Assembly: GCF_019649055.1 (NCBI RefSeq)
Contig: NW_026570569.1
Span: 1-40,179, forward strand
Length of the DNA: 40,179 nucleotides
Source of the DNA: Paramacrobiotus metropolitanus
Lineage: Eukaryota; Tardigrada; Eutardigrada; Parachela; Macrobiotidae
Direction: 5' to 3'
Shown: positions 1 through 38,960 of the stretch, piece after piece
Numbering within the stretch: the first letter of the stretch is position 1
How the letters are laid out: each line of letters opens with the position of its first letter
Program-made: the position numbers and the translations under genes
Notes under the pieces: generated by a model
Databases searched by the model: none
Told to the model about the DNA's origin: nothing
The model's input: the letters and a program-made list of their open reading frames with translations, nothing else

Positions 1-108
1 GAGAAATATGATCGCCTCATCCATGTCTGGCGCAAGCAGTTCCTTTCCTTTCGTTGACTTTTTGACATTTCCACTTTCACTTTCCTTCTCCGGTGCTCTG
101 GTACTGGA

Positions 109-2655
109 TTATCCGTTGGCTGATCGTTCTGCTGCACTCTCGTCATTCCAGTGCCTCTGGTACTGGGATGACCTTCTTTTCCCCTTTTGTGTCAGCATTG
201 TCCGGTTTAATGTATTTTCAATCTCCTGCTGGATCACTTTCAACTGCTCAAATGTGGACAGTTCTTGTTGCGCTGTCTTTTTCCTTTCGTTTCCCGGTGC
301 CTCTGGTACTGGGATTAGCGTTTTATTAGCGGTTTGAGCATTTCCCGTCTGTGTTACAAGCTCGGTGACCTTTCCGACTTGAACTTTGGCGACTGGTTTC
401 GGGTCATCTTCCTTCTCTTCTTCTCCTTCAATATCCATCAGTACGAATTTCTTTTCCAGGAAGTCAAATCCCAGTAAGACCTGTACGTCGTCGCACTTCG
501 GTCGGACGTAGAAGGAATGTTCGCTAGTCTTTTTCCTTAAGGTCACCGGTGCTACGCAGTAATGTGTCACCATGAAGCCTGACGTTCCGCTAATTCCATT
601 TATCTTCACCAGTCTGTCTGGTGGCAATGGGAACATATGAAGTCCATTTTTCTCACAAAACGGTTTGCTGATCAGCGACGTCTCAGCGCCGGTGTCCAGC
701 ATTGCGTTGACCTTTATGTCTCCCACCTTCACTTCGTGTGTGTATGCTTCAATCCTTTTGGGCAATTTTCCGTTTTGAATCTTCAATGTGTGAATCTTGC
801 ACTTCACAGGGATTAACGATACTGGTCCCGGATCCATATCGGGAAGCACTTGCCCTTTCGCTGGAGTGCCATGACCTTTCAGTATCTCGCTCAGCTTATC
901 AATCCTGTGTGGCACGTCTGTTCGGACATCGTAAAATTCTCGAGTCTTTTTATTCGCTCCTTTTACAGACTTTTTATCTGTGGTGACCTTTTCGGCATTC
1001 TGCACTTGCTCTTTTGCTTTTGTGCAGTCCCCGTGACCTTTAGTCACTTCATTTATCGTCCGGTGGATCAGTTCTTCTTTGCGGGTATCATTTCGTTTAT
1101 CTCGCAGCTTCTCAATGACTTCACTTGTTATCTGTTCAGCCCGTTTCAATTCATCCTCTTCGCTGACTCTCTTGTCATCTGGTGACCTTTCATATGTAAC
1201 CATGTCGTATCCCTTTTGGGTCATCCATTCAATCACCTTTGCAGACACTTCATTATTCGTTTTCGTCGGGTCAATTTGCGAAGACATCCCATCTGTTCGG
1301 GCTGGTGACTTGTCATTGGCTTCCTGTTGCAGTGCTTGCGATAAGTCCCGTGACCTTTCAGCCGCGCTACTCTGTTGCGTTTGCGCCCTTTCATTTGACC
1401 ATCCTTTTTGTTCATTTTGCGCTAAGTCCTGTGACCTTTCATTGCGCTTTATGACAAATCCGCCATTTGTCAGCTTTTGTATGGGAACTTTTTCTCCATA
1501 ATTTAACGGTTTATCTTTCGGTGGTGCATTTCGCGAATCCTTCATATCGGTAAGTGTCTTCTTATATTCCTCTTCATTGAATACTGGGGCAGGGTTCGGT
1601 GACCTTTGCGTTGGTTTCCCGGTAACCAACTCTTCTAGTCTTTTTCTCTCATGTTGCGTTCGCAGTTCTCGCATGTCCCAGTAATCCTCTTGCGACATTC
1701 CCGCTTTCTGTTTCGCTTTTGGCGTTACGGGTATCCACATCCCGTGATTCCCCTTTGGTCTGTAGGCCACTTTTTGCCATATTTCCTTCTGTTGCAGTGT
1801 TACTGCGTCAACGAGTGAGTCATCGGAGTTCTGTTCGCTATTCTTTTGCTGCGCTGTTCGCAGTGTCAAGTCTGTTTCTTGACCTTTTAGCACGGCACTT
1901 TCACCGTGACCTTTAGCGTTTACAATTGCTCCTTGACCTTTCGCTTGAACTTTTCCAATGGAAAGTGACCTTTCATCTTTACTGCCATTCGGTTTATTGT
2001 TTTCTGCCAAATATTTCCGGAATTTCGCGTGTTGCTCGTCATCCATTTCTTCATGTCCGCAGTCACATTTTGTTCGTTGACAGTTTCCACTCGCAGTACC
2101 ATTCTGCGGTGATGACCTTTGATTCCGCAGCGCCTGTTGAATCTTCGCGTTTCTTTGTGCGCGTCGTTGCGCTAGCACTTCTTCGCTGCAATACGGTGAC
2201 CTTTCGTTTTGCTGCGCTGTTCGCAGTGTCGCGCTACCGTCACGACAATTTCCACTCGCAGTACCATTCTGCGGTGACCTTTGGTCCCGTTGTGCGTTTC
2301 CACTCGCAGTGCCATTCTGCGGTGACCTTTGATTCATTTGTACTGGTTTCCCGATAACCAGTTCCTTTTGCTGCTGTGGCGGCATCCATATAGCCGTTCT
2401 ATGTGGTTGCGGCATCCATATAGCCGGTCCACTTCCGTTTTGCGCTGACGGCATCCATATAGCCGTTCTCTGTGGTTGCGGCATCCATATAGCCGGTCCA
2501 CTTCCGTTTTGCGCTGACGGCATCCATCTAGCCGTTGCAGTGGTCACGTTCACTGCAGTACCATTCTGCAGTGGTGACCTTTCCGTTCCCTTTTTATCCG
2601 GTGGTTTAGGGTCGGGGCGATCAGTAGGCTCACCGGCGCCTACTGATCTTGCCCG
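109..2655 (-). CDS. retroelement protease (retropepsin) frame, with long repetitive N-terminal region
   Basis: This is the second large frame of an LTR-retrotransposon-like element, entered by a -1 frameshift at 2655-2661. The frame is open across the overlap, so no separate ATG is needed; the first in-frame GTG lies at 2553. Counted from there, an aspartic protease domain starts near residue 600, with the catalytic DTGAE motif (Asp about residue 620, codon at 694-696) and the C-terminal LLGFDFL signature. The first 500 residues are low-complexity and polar, rich in QNG and RSP repeats. The role is maturation cleavage of Gag and Pol. The frame stops at TAA 109-111, but the same frame is open again from there to the left edge, so Pol may continue out of the window. 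No reverse transcriptase is seen. A Ty3-like (Metaviridae) element is my best family guess. Confidence 0.85.
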   Translation of the reverse strand, partial: RARSVGAGEPTDRPDPKPPDKKGTERSPLQNGTAVNVTTATARWMPSAQNGSGPAIWMPQPQRTAIWMPSAQNGSGPAIWMPQPHRTAIWMPPQQQKELVIGKPVQMNQRSPQNGTASGNAQRDQRSPQNGTASGNCRDGSATLRTAQQNERSPYCSEEVLAQRRAQRNAKIQQALRNQRSSPQNGTASGNCQRTKCDCGHEEMDDEQHAKFRKYLAENNKPNGSKDERSLSIGKVQAKGQGAIVNAKGHGESAVLKGQETDLTLRTAQQKNSEQNSDDSLVDAVTLQQKEIWQKVAYRPKGNHGMWIPVTPKAKQKAGMSQEDYWDMRELRTQHERKRLEELVTGKPTQRSPNPAPVFNEEEYKKTLTDMKDSRNAPPKDKPLNYGEKVPIQKLTNGGFVIKRNERSQDLAQNEQKGWSNERAQTQQSSAAERSRDLSQALQQEANDKSPARTDGMSSQIDPTKTNNEVSAKVIEWMTQKGYDMVTYERSPDDKRVSEEDELKRAEQITSEVIEKLRDKRNDTRKEELIHRTINEVTKGHGDCTKAKEQVQNAEKVTTDKKSVKGANKKTREFYDVRTDVPHRIDKLSEILKGHGTPAKGQVLPDMDPGPVSLIPVKCKIHTLKIQNGKLPKRIEAYTHEVKVGDIKVNAMLDTGAETSLISKPFCEKNGLHMFPLPPDRLVKINGISGTSGFMVTHYCVAPVTLRKKTSEHSFYVRPKCDDVQVLLGFDFLEKKFVLMDIEGEEEKEDDPKPVAKVQVGKVTELVTQTGNAQTANKTLIPVPEAPGNERKKTAQQELSTFEQLKVIQQEIENTLNRTMLTQKGKRRSSQYQRHWNDESAAERSANG
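2381..2540 (-). repeat. 69-bp tandem repeat inside the protease frame
   Basis: Two nearly identical 69-bp units (2381-2449 and 2450-2518) plus a partial third (from 2519) lie near the start of the protease frame. The period is a multiple of three and encodes a 23-residue unit containing AIWMPSAQNGSG and AIWMPQP. The copies differ at only a few bases, so the duplication looks recent compared with the rest of the frame. Confidence 0.85.
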
Positions 2656-2661
2656 TTTCCC
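2619..2661 (-). promoter_or_regulatory. -1 programmed ribosomal frameshift signal
   Basis: Read on the minus strand, the heptamer GGGAAAC (2655-2661) sits in the 0 frame as G GGA AAC, the canonical X XXY YYZ arrangement. A 6-nt spacer (2649-2654) follows, then a perfect 11-bp stem, GATCAGTAGGC pairing with GCCTACTGATC, closed by an 8-nt loop. The stop codon of the zinc-knuckle frame (2640-2642) is inside the stem. The protease frame is exactly -1 to the zinc-knuckle frame and open through the overlap. The same heptamer is known from simian type D retrovirus gag-pro shifts. Only the frame relation and the structure are seen here; activity is inferred. Confidence 0.85.
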
Positions 2662-3221
2662 TGAACCGGCGCACTTCCTTGTTGCGCGCCTTGTACATTT
2701 CCTTGTACGTTTCCTTGTGAGCCGTCATTCACCGGGCTAGGATTCTGTCCGCCGCCATAATTTTGGCCACCACCCTGTTGGTAGTTTCCTTGGCCGCCTC
2801 CATTTCCACCGCCTCGGTTGCCGTTCCAATTTCCGCGGCCGAAGCCTCTGTTCCTTCCTCTAAAGCCGCCGCGGCCGAAGCCACCACGGCCGTAGCCGCC
2901 ATTTTGGCCGCTGCCATTTCCATTTCCCTGCTGATTCGGGAAGTTCGCTTTGTGCTGATACCACTGGGCGATGATATCATATCCGTTTGCCACTGCTTGG
3001 CGCCAACCACCCAGTCCGCGCAATCGTTGCCATTCTCTGAAGGCAAACAGATTCGGGTTCTGTTCCGGGGGTGTGTTCGCGAACTTGCATCCTTGCGTCT
3101 GGTGGTTGCCATACATACAGTATTGGCACATCTGCGCGTTGTTCGCCACCCATCCGTCGATCATCTGGAATTTGTATTCCGTTCGTGACCCTTGCTGACC
3201 TTGCTGATTCTGGAAGTTATT
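2640..3221 (-). CDS. zinc-knuckle (nucleocapsid-like) extension of Gag
   Basis: This frame follows the Gag stop codon in the same reading frame; 19 codons separate the TAG from the first internal ATG (3164). It carries a perfect CX2CX4HX4C zinc knuckle (CQYCMYGNHQTQGC) about 30 residues in, then a long Gly/Asn/Gln/Arg-rich tail with RGG-like repeats, as expected for an RNA-binding nucleocapsid. It ends at TAG 2640-2642, inside the frameshift hairpin. Expression requires either readthrough of the upstream TAG or internal initiation; otherwise the stop is a lesion in this copy. Confidence 0.8.
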   Translation of the reverse strand, partial: NNFQNQQGQQGSRTEYKFQMIDGWVANNAQMCQYCMYGNHQTQGCKFANTPPEQNPNLFAFREWQRLRGLGGWRQAVANGYDIIAQWYQHKANFPNQQGNGNGSGQNGGYGRGGFGRGGFRGRNRGFGRGNWNGNRGGGNGGGQGNYQQGGGQNYGGGQNPSPVNDGSQGNVQGNVQGAQQGSAPVQGNGQDQ

Positions 3222-3224
3222 CTA
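3222..3224 (-). other. in-frame amber stop between Gag body and zinc knuckle
   Basis: A single TAG interrupts an otherwise continuous frame: upstream is the Gln/Gly/Asn-rich Gag tail, and downstream the same composition resumes and leads into the zinc knuckle. Bases after the stop are AATAAC, which is not one of the well-known strong readthrough contexts. It may be a point mutation in this copy or a leaky stop. Confidence 0.8.
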
Positions 3225-6200
3225 ATTTCCTCTGTTAGGTTGGAAATAACCTTGACCTTGACCTTGACCTTGGTTTTGGAAGTTCCCTTGACCTCCGTTC
3301 CAGTTTCCGTTTCCATAGCCATTTCCCCCAAAATTTCCGTTGCCCATTCCTTGTTGTGGTAGCCCTACATTCATAGGGGCCATATTCTGTGGTGCCGGTG
3401 GGGCCACGTTCTGAGGTGCCGGTCTCACCTGAGCCGCCGCTTGTATCGCCGCCACCATCGCATACGTTATTGGCTGCCCCGTCTGACTGTCGATAAAGGT
3501 CACCTTTTCTGTGACCTCTCTGGCCGGAGCTTCTCGGTATTCAACCGGTTGCTGGACCGGTACTGCCGCAATCCTTTGTTGTGGCACATTTTCGACTTGG
3601 CCTTGACGGATGGTGACGTATTCCTGATTGCGTTGACCTTTTGGCGCTTTGTACTTTTCTTCACCCGTTGCCCAGTGTCTGAAGAAATCCTTTACATCGG
3701 TTGGCGTTCTACACTTTTGTGTACGCAATGCCTTGTAGAGTTCGTTGTCCACTCTACATCCTTCGATTAAGAAGCCCACTGCTTGTTTTTCCGTAATAAT
3801 CCGTTTTGCTTTGAACCGCATCATCGCCTGGTAGTATTGATCAAGCGATTCTTTTCCGAGTTCGAATTTTCTTGCGTAGGCCTCACGTAAGCCCAAGACT
3901 TCTTCGTCTCTATCACCGTATTCGTCTTTAAATTTGTCCATCCATTCTGTGACTGAATATTCAATCCCGTCTTCCGATGCGATATCTTTTTCACTTTCAA
4001 ACCAGGTTTTAGCAGGACCTTTCACCGCACTGGCTATCTCGATCATGATTTGATCGTCGGTGAGCTGGTAAGTTCTTTGAGTGTCTTTCACCAGCCTTGT
4101 CCAACCATTCACCGTGTCGCGACTGCCATCAAAGGTCACGAGTGGCGTTTTTCGGGCCATAGAGTTGAGTGCTTTCGCTAATGCGAAGCCTCCTCTCGGG
4201 TCTTCTTCTTCCTCGCTACTTCCCTCTTCGTTTGTATTTCGCCTCTCTTTTGCGTAGCGGGACTTCCTTGGGCGCTCTTGGCGACTCGATGGTCTGTCTC
4301 GGTGTCCTTCGTCGATGAACACGTTCGTTTCGATGTGTGGGGGAAACTGTGAAGGGTCACCCCGGCTCATATGCGGGTAACTTTCCGATGGTGGCTCTTT
4401 GTCTTCTTTGACCTTTTCGCCGTTTCTTTCGTTTTTCACGCTCCCTTTACCGGTACCGGTTCGTGGCGGCATTTCAAAGTGAAAACTTTTGCCCGCGCCC
4501 GTTTCGTGTGTCTTACTGTAACTGGGCGGCGGTGATTCCACCGTTGCCGTTCTGACTCCGTATTGCAACAGCTGTTCGTCTTTGTGTTTATTTGACATAT
4601 TGAGAGCCTTATTCTCGTCCTCGAGACGTCTGATTTTCAAATCCGATTGCTCTTTCTCGACTCTCAAGTCCTGATTTTCCTGGTTGACCTTTAACATGTG
4701 ATGGTGGAGCTGGAACGTTTTCTCCTGAACGACCTTTTCAGTGTTGTTCTCCACCTTTTTGATGTATTCTGCCAACTGGGTCACTTCTCCTTCCAACTTT
4801 GTGTATTCTTCGGCTGCTGCTTTCAGCTGGTTCTTTGTCTGGGTGACTTCATCTTCTCTTGTCATCACCGTCTGGGTCATGTCAATCAGCTCCGTGTTGA
4901 GCTTTATGACCTCCTGTGTCTTCTGGTGGACTGTTTGTTGCCACTCCTTGTCTTTCCGTTCGAGCGTCGTAACCAATACGTCTAGACGGAGTGCTTGGCG
5001 CTCCCAGTTCATACCTTGTTCGGCTATTTTCTTGGCGGCTTCTTTCAGCTCATCGTTTTCTTCCATGACCTTTTTGTTCTCTTCTGTCGCCTGTCTTATC
5101 TCGTTCTTCAGCCGTGCACCTTCGGTGGCTGTAAGGTCCCTCAGGTCCTTAGCCGCTTGGACGGCTTCATCAGCTCTTTTCTGATGACCTTTCGATTCCC
5201 TTTGCAGTATTCCGATGTCCTCTTCCCGCTGCTTTAGTTCGTTTCTGAGCTTAAACACCTCGTTAGTGTTTGTCAACAATCGCTGAGAGGCTTCAGCGAG
5301 TTTGGTCGCGTATTCGTCCCTCTTAGCTTCAGCTTCGGTGACCTTTTGTTTCAATGAGTCACATTCGTCCTTCAATTCGGCTAAGTGCCGTGACCTTTCT
5401 GCTGATTCCTCTGACATACTCTCGTTGAGGTCACTGGCTGCAAGATGACCTTCCATTTCTCTGTCATCTACCATTTTCAAATATTCTTCCGCCATTTCCT
5501 TTTGTTTTTCGTATTTCACCTTCCATTCCTCTGCCGTACTCTCCAAATAACCCCGTTGCTGTTCCATCTCGAATAACCGGGTCTCGAGTGATACCAGTCT
5601 CTCTTGGTATTCCTGTTTTCTTTTCGCCATGTGACCTTCCTTAGCGTCAAGTTCACTTTCCAGATCTTGGACGCGTTTCCTCAGTGCCAACGTAGGGCTA
5701 TTCGGTGACGGCGGTCGTACATTTATGACCTTTCCAGTTTGTGTCCGTTCAATTAGGTGTTGAGGTATGTCCTTAAAAGGGGTCATCTCTTCAGCACGGT
5801 CGGCTTGTCTCATCGCAGACTGGAAGGACATATTCATCGTTGTGTCATCGTCCGTGAAATACGATTCATTGGATTCATCTGAGACCATTGGAGTTGCCCA
5901 AAGGTCATCGTCTGCCGTTTGATCATTCAGTGAAAGGTCATCCAGTCTCAGTTCAGCCAGTTCTCCTTTGGTGACCTTTGTGTTTCCAATATCCATTTGA
6001 GCCAGGTTTACATTCTTATCCTGCTCATCAATTCCGACAGTGGTAGCATCCAACTGTGATGCTCCGACTGCTTCCACTTCCTTTTTTGTGGTTCCATCCT
6101 CCCCAGTGACCTTTGTCTGGTTCATCGGTTCACTTCCCGTCGCAGACGCGGGAGTGTGCTTCTGGTCGTCACTGGAACTCTCCTGGTTGGCGACCGCCTC

Positions 6201-6407
6201 GAGCGCCTTCTGATAAGTGCTATCAGAGCCTCGCGAATCCTTCTTCTCGAATGCTTTGGGCGCTCGAGTGTTCCGCTCATGTCCGACTGGACGTGAGTAT
6301 GTGTGCAAGTCTTTTTTGTACGGGTTTGGTGCGCCTTGCTGTGAGCTGCGGGAGCTTGTGCTTCCCTGGCTGCCAGTAGATGTTGGCTGTTCGTTGTCTT
6401 TGTCCAT
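3222..6407 (-). CDS. retroelement Gag polyprotein with long coiled coil
   Basis: A 1061-residue Gag-like protein. Residues 1 to about 200 are acidic and low-complexity. Residues about 230-660 form a long heptad-type coiled coil rich in Glu, Lys, Gln and Leu. Around residues 750-930 lies a retrotransposon-Gag core (VTFDGS, then a conserved Trp, KGPAKTWF, and a helical region containing LGLREAYARKFELG). The C-terminal tail is Gln/Asn/Gly-rich with repeated GQ. ATG 6405-6407 has a purine at -3. Usual Ty3-like Gags are a few hundred residues, so the coiled-coil half is an unusual expansion. The role is capsid assembly around element RNA. The zinc knuckle is missing from this frame and lies beyond the in-frame stop. 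Confidence 0.85.
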   Translation of the reverse strand: MDKDNEQPTSTGSQGSTSSRSSQQGAPNPYKKDLHTYSRPVGHERNTRAPKAFEKKDSRGSDSTYQKALEAVANQESSSDDQKHTPASATGSEPMNQTKVTGEDGTTKKEVEAVGASQLDATTVGIDEQDKNVNLAQMDIGNTKVTKGELAELRLDDLSLNDQTADDDLWATPMVSDESNESYFTDDDTTMNMSFQSAMRQADRAEEMTPFKDIPQHLIERTQTGKVINVRPPSPNSPTLALRKRVQDLESELDAKEGHMAKRKQEYQERLVSLETRLFEMEQQRGYLESTAEEWKVKYEKQKEMAEEYLKMVDDREMEGHLAASDLNESMSEESAERSRHLAELKDECDSLKQKVTEAEAKRDEYATKLAEASQRLLTNTNEVFKLRNELKQREEDIGILQRESKGHQKRADEAVQAAKDLRDLTATEGARLKNEIRQATEENKKVMEENDELKEAAKKIAEQGMNWERQALRLDVLVTTLERKDKEWQQTVHQKTQEVIKLNTELIDMTQTVMTREDEVTQTKNQLKAAAEEYTKLEGEVTQLAEYIKKVENNTEKVVQEKTFQLHHHMLKVNQENQDLRVEKEQSDLKIRRLEDENKALNMSNKHKDEQLLQYGVRTATVESPPPSYSKTHETGAGKSFHFEMPPRTGTGKGSVKNERNGEKVKEDKEPPSESYPHMSRGDPSQFPPHIETNVFIDEGHRDRPSSRQERPRKSRYAKERRNTNEEGSSEEEEDPRGGFALAKALNSMARKTPLVTFDGSRDTVNGWTRLVKDTQRTYQLTDDQIMIEIASAVKGPAKTWFESEKDIASEDGIEYSVTEWMDKFKDEYGDRDEEVLGLREAYARKFELGKESLDQYYQAMMRFKAKRIITEKQAVGFLIEGCRVDNELYKALRTQKCRTPTDVKDFFRHWATGEEKYKAPKGQRNQEYVTIRQGQVENVPQQRIAAVPVQQPVEYREAPAREVTEKVTFIDSQTGQPITYAMVAAIQAAAQVRPAPQNVAPPAPQNMAPMNVGLPQQGMGNGNFGGNGYGNGNWNGGQGNFQNQGQGQGQGYFQPNRGN
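3250..3273 (-). repeat. triple TCAAGGTCA-type direct repeat in the Gag tail
   Basis: On the minus strand AAGGTCA is repeated head to tail with a 6-bp period (plus strand TTGACC repeats), giving overlapping TCAAGGTCA sites that encode a GQGQGQ run. TCAAGGTCA is the classic extended half-site of FTZ-F1 and ERR type nuclear receptors. Whether it is bound is unknown; the repeat is seen directly. Confidence 0.7.
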
Positions 6408-6482
6408 GTTGATCGGATAACTTGGACGCCCCTGTCAATTGTTCTCACGCACACGTTATTGTATGGTTTATTCACTTGTCCT

Positions 6483-6997
6483 AAAGGTCACTTTGTACTT
6501 CGAAATTTTTCTAAGTCCCTGTTAAAGGTCACTTTTCGGTTGAAAAAATTCGACTAAGTCCCGTTTAAAGGTCACTTTTCCGATAAAAAGTTCGAGAGAT
6601 TTGCCCTAAAGGTCACTTTTCGGACAAAACTTCGAGAGCGTTTTTCACAGTTCAGAACACGTTTACGAATGAAATCCTACAGCTGCTGATGTCGCTGTAC
6701 TACTAATCAACTCAATTTCAGCTTCGTTAAAAGGTCACTTTTGGTCAATTTCAGGTCTTAAAGGTCACCTTTACGTTTAATTTATTCGGTTCCAACTTTT
6801 TAGTAAAGGTCACTTTCCAAAGTCAAAGGTCACTTTCTGGTCTTAAAGGTCACTTTCAAACTCAATTTAGCTCAAAGGTCACTTTCGTACTCAATTTCTG
6901 TCAAAAAGGTCACTTTCCGACCTAATTTTAATCAAAGGTCATCTTTCCTTTGTCTCAACTTAAAGGTCACTTTCCAGCTCAATTTTATCAAAGGTCA
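6483..6997 (+). repeat. leader array of 14 AAAGGTCA(CTTT) octamers
   Basis: Fourteen exact AAAGGTCA octamers start at 6483, 6524, 6567, 6608, 6730, 6760, 6805, 6825, 6845, 6874, 6905, 6934, 6962 and 6990, mostly extended to AAAGGTCACTTT. All are in plus orientation, opposite to the element's transcription. Spacing is irregular, 20-122 bp. AAAGGTCA is the published NBRE half-site bound by NR4A/DHR38-type nuclear receptors. The array lies between the putative promoter and the Gag ATG, so it would be 5' untranslated leader or part of the LTR. Confidence 0.9.
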
Positions 6998-7175
6998 CTT
7001 TTCCTTTCAAATATCTCTTCTCGATTCAGATTTCTCGTTACTGTTCAAGTTCAACGGAAAATCCCCATTCAAGTTGTTTACTTCGTTCCTATTGGTCCGC
7101 TAGCTCAAAATGTTCAGTTCAAATTTCGACCAATCGGAGCTCAGATAACTGACCAATCACGTTAATCCGTTTAAA

Positions 7176-7300
7176 TTTTATATAAGCCTGACGTCACGGT
7201 CAACGGCCAGACGTGCGTGCCGTGCGCAAAACTCCGCCTACGTCTATGCTCAGCTCAGTACGGACCAATGAAAATTAAAAATTTCACCGTCTATCCAATC
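7176..7300 (-). promoter_or_regulatory. putative retroelement promoter (TATA, CRE, CCAAT boxes)
   Basis: Read on the minus strand there is a TATATAAAA box (7176-7184), just upstream of it a perfect CRE palindrome TGACGTCA (7189-7196), and further upstream two inverted CCAAT boxes (near 7264 and 7295). Transcription would start near 7150 and run through the octamer leader into Gag. This is probably the U3 part of the 5' LTR. The LTR ends cannot be fixed because the 3' LTR lies outside the window. Confidence 0.5.
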
Positions 7301-8737
7301 CCGTAATTAATAACGGTTTTCTACCTGTTTCACCGTCCGTTCCGCGGGGAAATGATCCAAATGATCCAGATTCTTCTTCCACAGTCCGTTCCCGCGTCGC
7401 CGCTGTTCCGTAGCGTGCCTCGCGCTATCAGTCTACTACTGTGCCGGCTGTGCCGTAGCAACAGTAATGCTCTACTCCAGTTTGGAGGAGTCTGATCCGG
7501 TCTTTTCCCGTGCGCCCCTTTTGGCACTTCGCCGCCTGTGGCCCACGGCTTAGGATTCGCTGAATCCTTGCCGAGTAACAGTGACACCAGCACGGGTCTT
7601 CGCTGAAGACTCCGTACCGAGGAACACTGCCGACTGAACTCTTGTGCTCTTGCACAGACCTTGCAACAGTACAGGTCTTCGCTGAAGACTCTGCACCGAA
7701 AACAAGGCTGGAAATCCGATGAGGAACTTGCACCGCTTGTGGTGTTGCGCTTTGCTGTTGGACAGACCTGTGCCTTACTGGTCACGGATATCACGTCGGA
7801 TAACAGGCCAATTTTGCCTGACACAATTCGAATCATTAAAATCGCTTCAGTCAAGAGAACCGCTGTCGGCTCTGCTACCATCTAATGCTAGATCCAGAAT
7901 GGATCCAGAGACAGAGACAGAAACGGGATCTATCCTGTGGAGTGAGCGAAACGATAGGGTTCGCGAACTATGCGGAAACACAAAACGTCGCACCGTAATC
8001 GCTAACTTTTTAATAATATCGAAAGTCTGGAGCCCAGAAATCAACATACTGATCGGCGCAGCTCGATCGTGAAAACGTAGAGCCAATTCCACACTGTGCA
8101 ACACTGTGCAACACGTGCTATACCGCGCCCACTAATAAAGCGCGAGCCAATCAGAAGCGAGACACAACACAGACCGTAATCCATGGCGTAGCGCCTAGCG
8201 CGCCACAGGCGTGAACGCTAGTGAGCCCTCGTCTCACACGCCGCATTCAGCATTCGCCGGAATGGCGGCAACGCTGCTACGGAGGTCATGGTTCTCTGAT
8301 CCCGTCGTAAACTTCGCACCTTGTAGTTTGTACGGGTCGTGGGTCGATCAGCACCCGAAGGGACTTATTTTCTGTGAAGAAAAAATTCGCTAACCCAAGC
8401 ACTGGTAAAAACTACTATCACTCTACTATCTACTATCTACTATCACTCAAAATGTTTATGGCTTCAGTACAATGCTGCTCTAGAGAAGAAAAAAGTCAAA
8501 TCCGCATCACATTGCAACAATGTGGTTACGTAAGCGAATCTCTTTGGACGCGATATCCTCGTTCGAACAGTGCAGTCATGAGAGGCCGCAGAGTCTCATC
8601 ACGGCGACACTAAGATCCGCGATAACAGTATCTAATTGTGGCCAGCTTGCAGACGGCATCATTTATTGGAAAAGATGCTTTATTCAGCCTGCGTATTGCT
8701 AGACTGGCCGCTGCTGACTACACAACTCGCAAAAAAT
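7301..8737. other. no recognised gene; possible upstream LTR or flank
   Basis: Short open frames occur on both strands but none has a recognisable domain or a convincing exon structure. A 79-bp imperfect duplication carries the hairpin GTCTTCGCTGAAGACTC at 7596-7612 and again at 7675-7691. Near 8090 there is a short ACTGTGCAAC direct repeat. The stretch may include the remaining U3 and the element's outer edge, but no boundary is visible. Confidence 0.5.
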
Positions 8738-37106: not shown

Positions 37107-38960
37107 ATGGTGGACAGTGCAAGCAAACTAAATCCGGGCAAGGAATCTAAGTTCGCAAGCGCGCCAAGCATGATGGACGATAAGCCCCTGCAAGGATTTA
37201 TTGGGAGGATCACCTCCGTCTGGGCAGTTTTGTTGCAGCTTTGCGGCTGCTTTTGTTATCCATATAACAAACACTCGAAACGAGGCAGAATATTGCGTCC
37301 TTTGGCGTATCTGTACCTCGCACTCATTCTCGCTGCAAACTCACTCGGTACCGTCGACGAGATAATGTATGAAACCCCGTCGTTATCGAACTGGTTCACG
37401 CTGTTGGTGTACAAAGCTATCGATGCTTCGGATTTCATCTCCAAGTTGCTGTGTACCTGCTTCATGTGGTCGGCCAGCCAGCGAATTACGGAGCTGACTG
37501 GTCAGTTGGACCGGAAGTACGGGAGACTGGTCACACGGAAAGATGGCTGCGTAATTATTGCATGTATGATCTTATACATAACAATTATTTTATCGCGAAA
37601 CTGCTATCGATTCTGCGAAGAACAATTCAGCCACTTTCCCCGTGATTTTTTTAAATATAAGACACGCTATTTCCCAAGTATTCCTGCATCTTATATTCGG
37701 CTGATCGAATCGACGGTTCGCATCTACGCTATACTGATTAATGTGACGAGAATCGGGCGGGAACTTTTGCTGTGTTTTCTAGTGGTCATTGCTCTCTCAT
37801 GCCGTGTTATTAGCAGACGGATCGTCCTTTCTGTGCGGCAGCAGCTAGCAACCTGCCGAACTATTTCGGTGCAAGAGTATCTGGAGTACTTTCAGCTGCC
37901 GTCCATCGTTCGAGGTTTGGATAGCTGCTTCACGATTATAGCCGCTGACCGCGCCATAGCTGCGGTAACTAGCCTCATTTATTATGCATTCGAACTCGGA
38001 AAATATTCGTCGGACGGTCAACCACCATCGGCCATGTCACTAGCTGGTCTGATCGTGTACTGTGTGCATTTGTGCGTCCTCGCCGGTGTTTGCGTATCAT
38101 CCACAAATCAGGTGAGCACATCTATTTGTCCGGGTTTTTTCAGTTTGTCCTTTTGACTTGTTATCTTCTTGTTCGAATGTTACGTACTTTATATGTTGAC
38201 TGCATCACTATGGGTTTGTGGTTTGGTTTATGATTAGGGCGAAGAAATGTTGGAGATCGAGCACGTTTGCTTAGAATTGGGAAAACGTAACTGGAAAAAA
38301 GACGAGTGGGCTGCAGTGTACGTCACTTGTCAGCAGAGAAATCAGTCGGGTTCTTTTACCGTGGCCGGTATAATCGTTACCCGGGAAAGTGCACTTCAGG
38401 TGATTCACTTATGTCTATGAAAATTAGTCAAGCATTGCTGTTTCTAGCTTAACAAAACTCCGCGCATGAGATGACAGCTGATAGGTCTGTTTCTGCTTCG
38501 ATTAAGGCGTCCCTTTAAAGCAAAAATCATCATATTACAAACTGTCGACTTATTTCTTGCACACATTATGTTCGTTTCGATATATACGTAATTTTTTTAA
38601 GACAAATAATATGCGCTTATTAAGCAGATAATGGCAAGACACACGAATATGTCCAGTAGTGACAAATGTCGCCTCGGTTATCGGCCTTATACCAATCACT
38701 ACTTTATGCCTAATATCAGAATTCAGAGTACACCAAAATTTAGAATCTGTTCTGTAAGTTCGTCAAACCTGAGTAACAGGAGACGTCGAGGTTTGTCTCT
38801 TTCTGGCAGTGTACAACATTGGGGCAGTTAATCTAAATTTTATTAGACGGGTGCTGCGTTGATTAGCACACTGCTTCTGTTTGCTGAACTGGCCAATGGT
38901 TGCAAATGCCCAGATTGCAATTGTGGAGCCATGAGTGCCAACTGCAGCCAGGTACGTTGA
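37107..38960 (+). CDS. gustatory-receptor-like seven-helix membrane protein, 3 exons, about 426 aa
   Basis: Exons are 37107-38111, 38238-38399 and 38847-38960; introns are GT-AG, phase 0 throughout (acceptors GATTAG and TATTAG). Hydrophobic segments in order: VWAVLLQLCGCFCY; LAYLYLALILAANSLG; the NWFTLLVYKAI region; VIIACMILYITIILS; LLLCFLVVIALSC; LAGLIVYCVHLCVLAGVC; and TGAALISTLLLFAELA in exon 3. Exon 2 carries the intracellular loop typical of the 7tm_7 family before the last helix (WAAVYVTCQQRNQ then FTVAGIIVTRESAL). Length fits invertebrate gustatory receptors (about 380-450 aa). It probably acts as a plasma-membrane chemosensory ion channel subunit; the ligand is unknown. The C-terminus is Cys-rich (CKCPDCNC), which is unusual. 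The frame ends at TGA 38958-38960 unless GTACGT at 38952 is used as a donor. Confidence 0.75.

Follow-up and report, generated by a model that had tools for sequence, protein, structure and literature searches.

Background

The gypsy retrotransposon of Drosophila carries, in its 5' untranslated region (UTR), an insulator of 340 bp that is described as a cluster of 12 Su(Hw) sites (PMC2374998). Response elements for nuclear receptors have been reported in transposable elements as well, for example the DR2 elements in Alu (PMC1785376). The NGFI-B response element (NBRE), the site of NR4A receptor monomers, is given as AAAGGTCA (PMC10419244), and the JASPAR model for NR4A2 is quoted as AAGGTCAC (PMC9067626). 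Here we analyze a retroelement of the tardigrade Paramacrobiotus metropolitanus in which the octamer AAAGGTCA (hereinafter the word) is repeated through the leader and the coding sequence. The element is a very large Ty3/gypsy-type (Metaviridae) retroelement, a type with long terminal repeats (LTRs), and occupies the minus strand at one end of the window, i.e. the 40,179 bases that make up an entire contig (C349) of the 169.8-Mb assembly, and is cut off by the contig edge. Words were counted on both strands unless an orientation is given.

Like Drosophila gypsy, this Ty3/gypsy-type element has putative factor sites clustered (9-17 of them in a leader of ~0.5-0.8 kb) between the LTR promoter and gag; judged by sequence position, the array lies downstream of a TATA-like box and upstream of open reading frame (ORF) 1. 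Unlike gypsy, which has the Su(Hw) consensus, the tardigrade element has a nuclear-receptor half-site, and this site also runs through the gag, pol and ORF3 coding sequences, with synonymous selection in ORF1 and the 5' part of ORF2. The gypsy Su(Hw) array is the closest precedent, and the present element goes beyond it, with the site written through its genes. Multiple exact NBRE octamers, along with a host NR4A that has an A-box, are features shared with NBRE reporters and NR4A target promoters; in contrast to such promoters, which contain few sites, the element has tens of sites in transcribed coding DNA and none in the LTR-side region. As reported for DR2 in Alu (PMC1785376), a mobile element distributes receptor sites across a genome, but each tardigrade element has many sites that are selectively kept in coding sequence. 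A search of the literature that covered titles and abstracts, with most subscription journals outside its coverage, returned no report of an NBRE-flooded retroelement.

Results and discussion

The octamer in the window and in other copies of the element

The window contains 49 exact copies of the word, 46 of these within positions 366-6997 and 3 in the other ~33 kb, whereas dinucleotide shuffles of the entire window (n=100) yielded a mean of 1.83 words and a maximum of 6, with none of the 100 attaining 49. The leader (6483..6997, minus strand) accounts for 14 words in 515 bp, exactly the number given in the first-pass annotation. The body of the element contains 32, namely 10 sense and 4 antisense words in ORF1, 17 and 0 in ORF2, and one sense word between the ORFs, in agreement with the earlier estimate of about 30 octamers in the ORFs (14 plus 17 by our count, and the one in between). 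The density of words in the ORFs of the window is 5.1 per kb. Synonymous-codon shuffles (n=2000 for each ORF) produced on average 1.07 sense and 0.10 antisense words in ORF1, with sums of 5 or less, and 1.57 sense and 0.0005 antisense words in ORF2, with sums of 7 or less; this control, which the first-pass annotation had proposed, falls short of the observed counts in both ORFs. The sense words are distributed over codon phases 0/1/2 as 2/1/7 in ORF1 and 5/9/3 in ORF2, so that every phase is used in both, as had been claimed. Chance, composition and codon usage as sources of the words are ruled out by the dinucleotide and synonymous-codon shuffles.

Written in the sense of the element, the 14 leader words are without exception TGACCTTT, mostly as AAAGTGACCTTT, and the body words are AAAGGTCA in 28 of 32 cases. 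The leader words are spaced at 20-45 bp, with a single gap of 122, and are partly arranged in tandem units of ~29 and ~43 bp; the single orientation of the leader fits growth by tandem duplication of these units. No prominent period was found when the leader words were inspected for helical phasing.

The flood of words is present in all copies that were aligned. In a genome search with ORF2, 55 of 1,037 first-look candidates were scored and 99 matches listed, from which we aligned 30 copies, the window and the 29 next best by score. The 29 copies are 0.85-0.93 identical to the window, and each has 17-24 words in sense and 0-4 in antisense orientation, compared with 18 and 0 in the 3.3 kb of the window. 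The enrichment, for which a count in other genomic copies had been suggested, is accordingly retained in the copies examined. Seven leaders hold 14, 11, 9, 17, 14, 11 and 12 exact words and none in the opposite orientation. Beyond the window, a pol-containing piece of a copy on contig C1 (L054) has 14 sense and 3 antisense words in 6 kb, with none in the matched stretches of reverse transcriptase (RT) and RNase H, one in the integrase core, and most in between. Another piece, from a copy on C9 (L076), has 8 sense words in 4 kb in and around ORF3, which carries words in the RS and KVT phases.

The flood has limits. On the LTR side of the array (7051..8238, minus strand), the upstream region has neither the word nor AGGTCA on either strand, and this holds in 4 of 4 copies compared (4.3 kb in total, of which 760 bp are from L053). 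Four other RT-bearing loci, three of them Ty3-like at 34-37% identity and one without a match to the pol of the element, contain no words in 2.8 kb each, and no 8-mer occurs more than five times in any of them. Two arbitrary 10-kb pieces of the genome contain 1 and 0 words.

A sister family of elements (L001, L006 and L012) also has words in the leader and in ORF1. In a many-sequence alignment, L001 and the window show 35-38% amino-acid identity; in the compared stretch, they share 3 of 10 words (4 with the inclusion of a DDLS word displaced by 9 columns), 6 words are the sister family's own, and 3 are specific to the family of the window. The presence of the flood in both families, partly at different places, implies a mixture of old sites and sites that turn over. 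By eye, the LTR/leader segment of L001 (G000:C1:217284-220334) seems to be inverted between two points relative to L006 and L012, which would flip two of its leader words.

Purifying selection on the word

We compared third-position diversity among the aligned ORF2 copies at codons for which the amino acid is retained in at least 90% of the copies. Diversity is 0.030 within words (33 sites) and 0.179 outside (480 sites; p 6.6e-7), or 0.161 when only the same amino acids are considered outside (246 sites; p 1.4e-5); amino-acid retention, at 0.93 within words and 0.83 outside, does not differ significantly (p 0.16). For ORF1, the comparison of four copies gave third-position diversities of 0.0 within sense words (20 sites; p 1e-7), 0.0 within antisense words (11 sites; p 6e-5) and 0.376 outside (602 sites). 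All these p-values are descriptive only because the copies share ancestry. Among the window's 17 ORF2 words, the 15 that could be tested as ungapped 8-mers are identical in a fraction of 0.86 of the other copies, compared with 0.41 for 2,134 other 8-mers. The proposal of the first-pass annotation that the word itself is selected is strongly borne out in both ORFs, also by the comparison of synonymous sites that it had suggested. Neither of the results named there as refuting selection, a loss of the enrichment in other copies and equal counts in codon-shuffled controls, was obtained.

Individual words illustrate this conservation. The word at 1034..1041 (minus strand) is an example of an invariant word, found in 30 of 30 copies, and the one within the protease domain (708..715, minus strand) is present in 26 of the 30. 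Each of the four antisense words of ORF1, which lie on the plus strand at 3495..3502, at 4131..4138, and as a pair within 5900..5940 (5900-5907 and 5933-5940), is found in 4 of 4 copies. Of the window's 10 sense ORF1 words, 6 are present in all 4 copies, 2 in 3 and 2 in 2; part of them being missing from some copies, not all words are old.

Places at which the word could be introduced with no change to the protein, but is lacking, number 0 in ORF1, 5 in ORF2, and 8 in the pol frame of L054, which has 15 words. The 0 and 5 empty silent slots indicate that ORF1 and the part of ORF2 in the window come close to saturation. These comparisons show that purifying selection acts on the word whichever way it is oriented, including at synonymous sites, and covers the 8 bases plus an avoidance of G at base 9, as would be expected of a double-stranded DNA site. 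Of course, the protein sequence is shaped by the words as well. Selection for transcription-factor sites in coding DNA is hard to show; here, dozens of replicate sites, ~30 aligned copies, all codon phases and both strands make the constraint plain.

Identity of the site and the host receptors

Conservation declines beyond the 8 bases. Base 9 in 683 words is C in 461, A in 111, T in 109 and G in only 2, these two being found in one copy each, at two of the 39 places in the alignment; by comparison, G follows 531 of 1,927 other TCA trinucleotides and 111 of 652 other GTCA tetranucleotides. In six pieces, several of which are homologous copies, the dinucleotide ahead of AGGTCA (n=234) is AA in 182 cases, CA in 12, GA in 11 and TA in 6. 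The sites of ERR and NR5A receptors are TCAAGGTCA, with C expected at base 1, and ERR, NR5A and ROR prefer CA or TA rather than AA ahead of AGGTCA. The AA extension and the near absence of G at base 9 fit NR4A better than ERR or NR5A sites. Genome-wide, AAAGGTCAC occurs 19,414 times compared with 3,461 for its reversed word, and the ERR/NR5A-like CAAGGTCAC is at background (1,895 compared with 1,871 for the reversed word). ERR or NR5A as the main reader is disfavored by the first base of the site and by the background frequency of CAAGGTCAC. Pairs of the NurRE type (TGACCTTT-n6-AAAGGTCA) are absent from the AGGTCA half-site pairs that start within 16 bp of each other in the six pieces; the only such pairs are direct 6-bp repeats, seen in 4 of the pieces, and a single inverted pair, seen in 3.

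The host genome has 63 zf-C4 matches, and of the 19 regions that we inspected one (L072) belongs to an NR4A. The zinc-finger exons of this gene are in L081 (first finger) and L072, and the A-box stretch, VVRTDSLKGRRGRLPTKPK, is in L082, the three loci having been read separately; for the second finger, NGFI-B is the closest match (3.2e-22). These matches show that the host encodes an NR4A receptor. The stretch in L082 is, we assume, the part that reads the AA extension. The repeated exact AAAGGTCA, the AA ahead of AGGTCA, and a host NR4A DNA-binding domain with an A-box extension are found together.

Proposed role of the array

We consider it most likely, with about equal room for doubt, that the words constitute an internal NR4A-type response or chromatin array, a putative coding-embedded relative of the Su(Hw) array in the gypsy 5' UTR. 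Under this proposal, the interior of a Ty3/gypsy-type element, comprising the leader and the coding sequence and excluding the LTR-side region, would have become densely filled with monomeric nuclear-receptor sites. The host NR4A orthologue (of the DHR38/Nur77 type), or another receptor with this specificity, would occupy many sites at once and might hold the integrated copy in open chromatin, and transcription could be driven or insulated from within the element upon induction of the receptor by stress, moult or metabolic state. Of the two mechanisms offered in the first-pass annotation, a receptor-site array across the body is the favored one; the other, an RNA packaging or assembly word, is disfavored given that the antisense words of ORF1 are equally strict and the leader is all antisense.

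Several observations weigh against an NR4A-type array. The LTR-side region that holds the TATA-like promoter has no word, and the array is therefore not a classical promoter-proximal enhancer. The disfavored form AAAGGTCAG also exceeds its reversed word genome-wide (4,042 compared with 2,427), partly on account of one tandem array. In host DNA, isolated AAAGGTCAC looks commoner than comparator words: 39 of the first 100 listed matches on the plus strand of C1 have no listed neighbor within 5 kb, as judged on plus-strand neighbors (minus-strand neighbors being unlisted), which corresponds to ~22 per Mb, and the three comparator words average 10.3, 5.4 and 11.3 per Mb on each strand across the genome. 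Of 12 isolated places that we sampled (L083-L094), one is a diverged relative of the element and 11 have no match to the element pieces used; the excess could represent true host sites or composition. The host also has other receptors that read related sites, of the FTZ-F1 type (L057) and the ERR types (L059 and L062) by the motifs that we recognize in them. The word could instead be read by a DNA-binding protein that the element encodes, or by a zinc-finger protein unrelated to nuclear receptors.

As an observation apart, AAAGGTCAG occurs eight times consecutively, every 90-91 bp, in a satellite-like tandem array at G000:C1:2537724-2538368.

Alternative explanations

The orientation of the words bears on the possibility that they act in RNA, either because the leader GTGACCUUU pairs with the body AAAGGUCAC or because the word is a packaging signal. 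The leader words are indeed the reverse complements of most body words (14 of 14 and 28 of 32, respectively), but the bias within the body (27 sense and 4 antisense words in ORF1 and ORF2) roughly tracks the coding room: slots that would fit the word by conservative changes number 274 sense and 42 antisense in ORF1 and 197 and 30 in ORF2, and, with one change of any kind allowed, 76 and 25, and 82 and 21, respectively. The orientation bias of the ORFs is about what this room leads one to expect, and an RNA-level explanation is unnecessary. A packaging word would be held in a single RNA orientation, and a word read by an RNA-binding protein would have no cause to be retained as its reverse complement, but the four antisense words of ORF1 are in 4 of 4 copies with a diversity of 0.0, i.e. 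they are as conserved as the sense words. Pairing also fails to account for base 9, where neither A nor G would pair with the usual G of the leader and yet A is frequent (111) and G almost missing (2), or for the antisense variant TGACCCTT (8 of 29 copies at one site), which has the same A3-to-G change as is seen in sense words and would disrupt pairing. As the main explanation, an RNA packaging word or leader-body pairing is ruled out by orientation room, antisense conservation and base 9, and any action at the RNA level is highly improbable. Given that both orientations are protected and that the bias approximates the coding room, the reader likely sees double-stranded DNA; the word behaves as a site in double-stranded DNA that has NR4A base preferences and is used in bulk, within the element only. 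It is even harder to credit that the words are a functionless by-product of tandem duplication or protein repeats. There are tandem units in the leader and some tandem runs in the ORFs (29-bp units in L053 and the window, a 27-bp spacing at window positions 1880-1941, and a 21-bp spacing in L051), but the words occupy all codon phases and both orientations, their synonymous sites are conserved, and their positions differ in the sister family. The synonymous-site tests and codon phases refute tandem or protein repeats as a sufficient source, although the leader is partly tandem, and uphold the earlier argument that a protein repeat cannot explain the octamer.

Among the DNA-level alternatives, the most serious, although still unlikely in our judgment, is that the reader is not a nuclear receptor at all but a DNA-binding part of the element itself (in Gag, integrase or ORF3) or a zinc-finger architectural protein of the host, the identity with the NBRE being coincidental and the use being, for example, condensation of the cDNA or insulation. 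Restriction of the flood to the internal region in the four copies examined and its absence from the four other RT-bearing loci, three of them Ty3-like, speak for such a reader, as do the 12 Su(Hw) zinc-finger sites described in the gypsy 5' UTR itself (PMC2374998). Against it stand the detailed match to NR4A, comprising the AA extension, the AGGTCA core, and the preference for C and shunning of G at base 9, and the Pfam searches of ORF1, the window part of ORF2 and the pol piece, which detected only DNA-binding domains usual in Ty3 elements. We hold it somewhat more doubtful that the coding sequence is dual-coding, specifying a protein and at the same time an extended surface to which one nuclear receptor of the host would bind, with a purpose other than that of a promoter; selection would then maintain the density of sites despite the turnover of some of them, and the receptor could, for instance, coat the cDNA and direct it to the nucleus or to end-joining repair, or hold chromatin open and so defeat silencing. 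A role specifically at the cDNA stage is improbable: newly made, NBRE-rich element DNA would be coated by a receptor that shuttles between nucleus and cytoplasm and contacts DNA-PK/Ku, which might aid nuclear entry or integration. Words throughout the internal region, as far as examined, exceed the needs of a promoter, and in human cells the NR4A2 DNA-binding domain is reported to bind DNA-PKcs and Ku and NR4A to promote end joining (PMC6381605), a link that speaks for such a role, but the 5' LTR-side region has no word.

With an NR4A-type array as the preferred interpretation, the element opens the questions of how a retroelement captures a hormone-type receptor of its host and whether transposition in a tardigrade is under the control of stress or moult signaling. 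As a natural bait with many sites, the array could also be of use for an NR4A orthologue.

Organization of the element and other features

The order of the element, from 5' to 3', is the LTR (from 8238), a CRE-like site, a TATA-like box, the word array, ORF1, a Gly/Asn-rich stretch with a CCHC-like motif, and ORF2. The 5' edge of the LTR at 8238 (TG...) is the shared start of most of 40 scored genomic matches. The TATA-like box (~7177-7185, by eye) and the CRE-like TGACGTCA (7189-7196), which together span 7177..7196 on the minus strand, are located ~180 bp ahead (on the 5' side) of the first word in the leader; a single TGACGTCA is within chance for the window. ORF1 (3222..6407, minus strand) encodes a Gag-like protein of 1061 amino acids with no Pfam match above the cut-off. 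The inter-ORF region (2554..3221, minus strand), with its one word at 2575-2582, encodes a Gly/Asn-rich protein, and in the 2640-3164 frame we read by eye a CX2CX4HX4C (CCHC-like) motif. The 5' part of ORF2 (109..2553, minus strand), in which the 17 sense words lie, encodes a region without Pfam matches followed by an aspartyl protease at residues 607-698; the frame closes at 109-111 in the window copy and is open for >3000 amino acids in 4 of the copies listed. At the start of ORF2, a 69-bp tandem repeat (2380-2536; 2.3 copies with 97% matches) encodes a repeated IWMP-containing peptide.

Assignment to the Ty3/gypsy type follows the order of domains, with the protease in the window ORF2 and RVT_1, RT_RNaseH, Integrase_H2C2 and rve in this order in L054. 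Downstream of the integrase, past a non-coding gap, there is a third ORF of >1,200 amino acids (L076 217-3999, and the 3' end of L054), which makes the element unusually large for the Ty3 type. No match to a 3' LTR was found in L076, a piece that possibly ends short of it. The 31 listed relatives of ORF1, scored among the 7,998 candidates that share the most words with it, are all from P. metropolitanus. Automatic annotation labels several of these ORF1 copies (among P0002-P0032) as golgin, myosin, paramyosin, CEP250 or bicaudal-D like; the relatives with golgin- and myosin-like names are Gag-like ORFs of retroelements, not host genes.

The window has no tRNA genes, and positions 1-8300 gave no Rfam matches at gathering thresholds. 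Elsewhere in the window, an uninterrupted ORF of 349 amino acids (37107-38156) encodes a protein with hydrophobic, putative transmembrane stretches (by eye) and no Pfam match at E 0.01.

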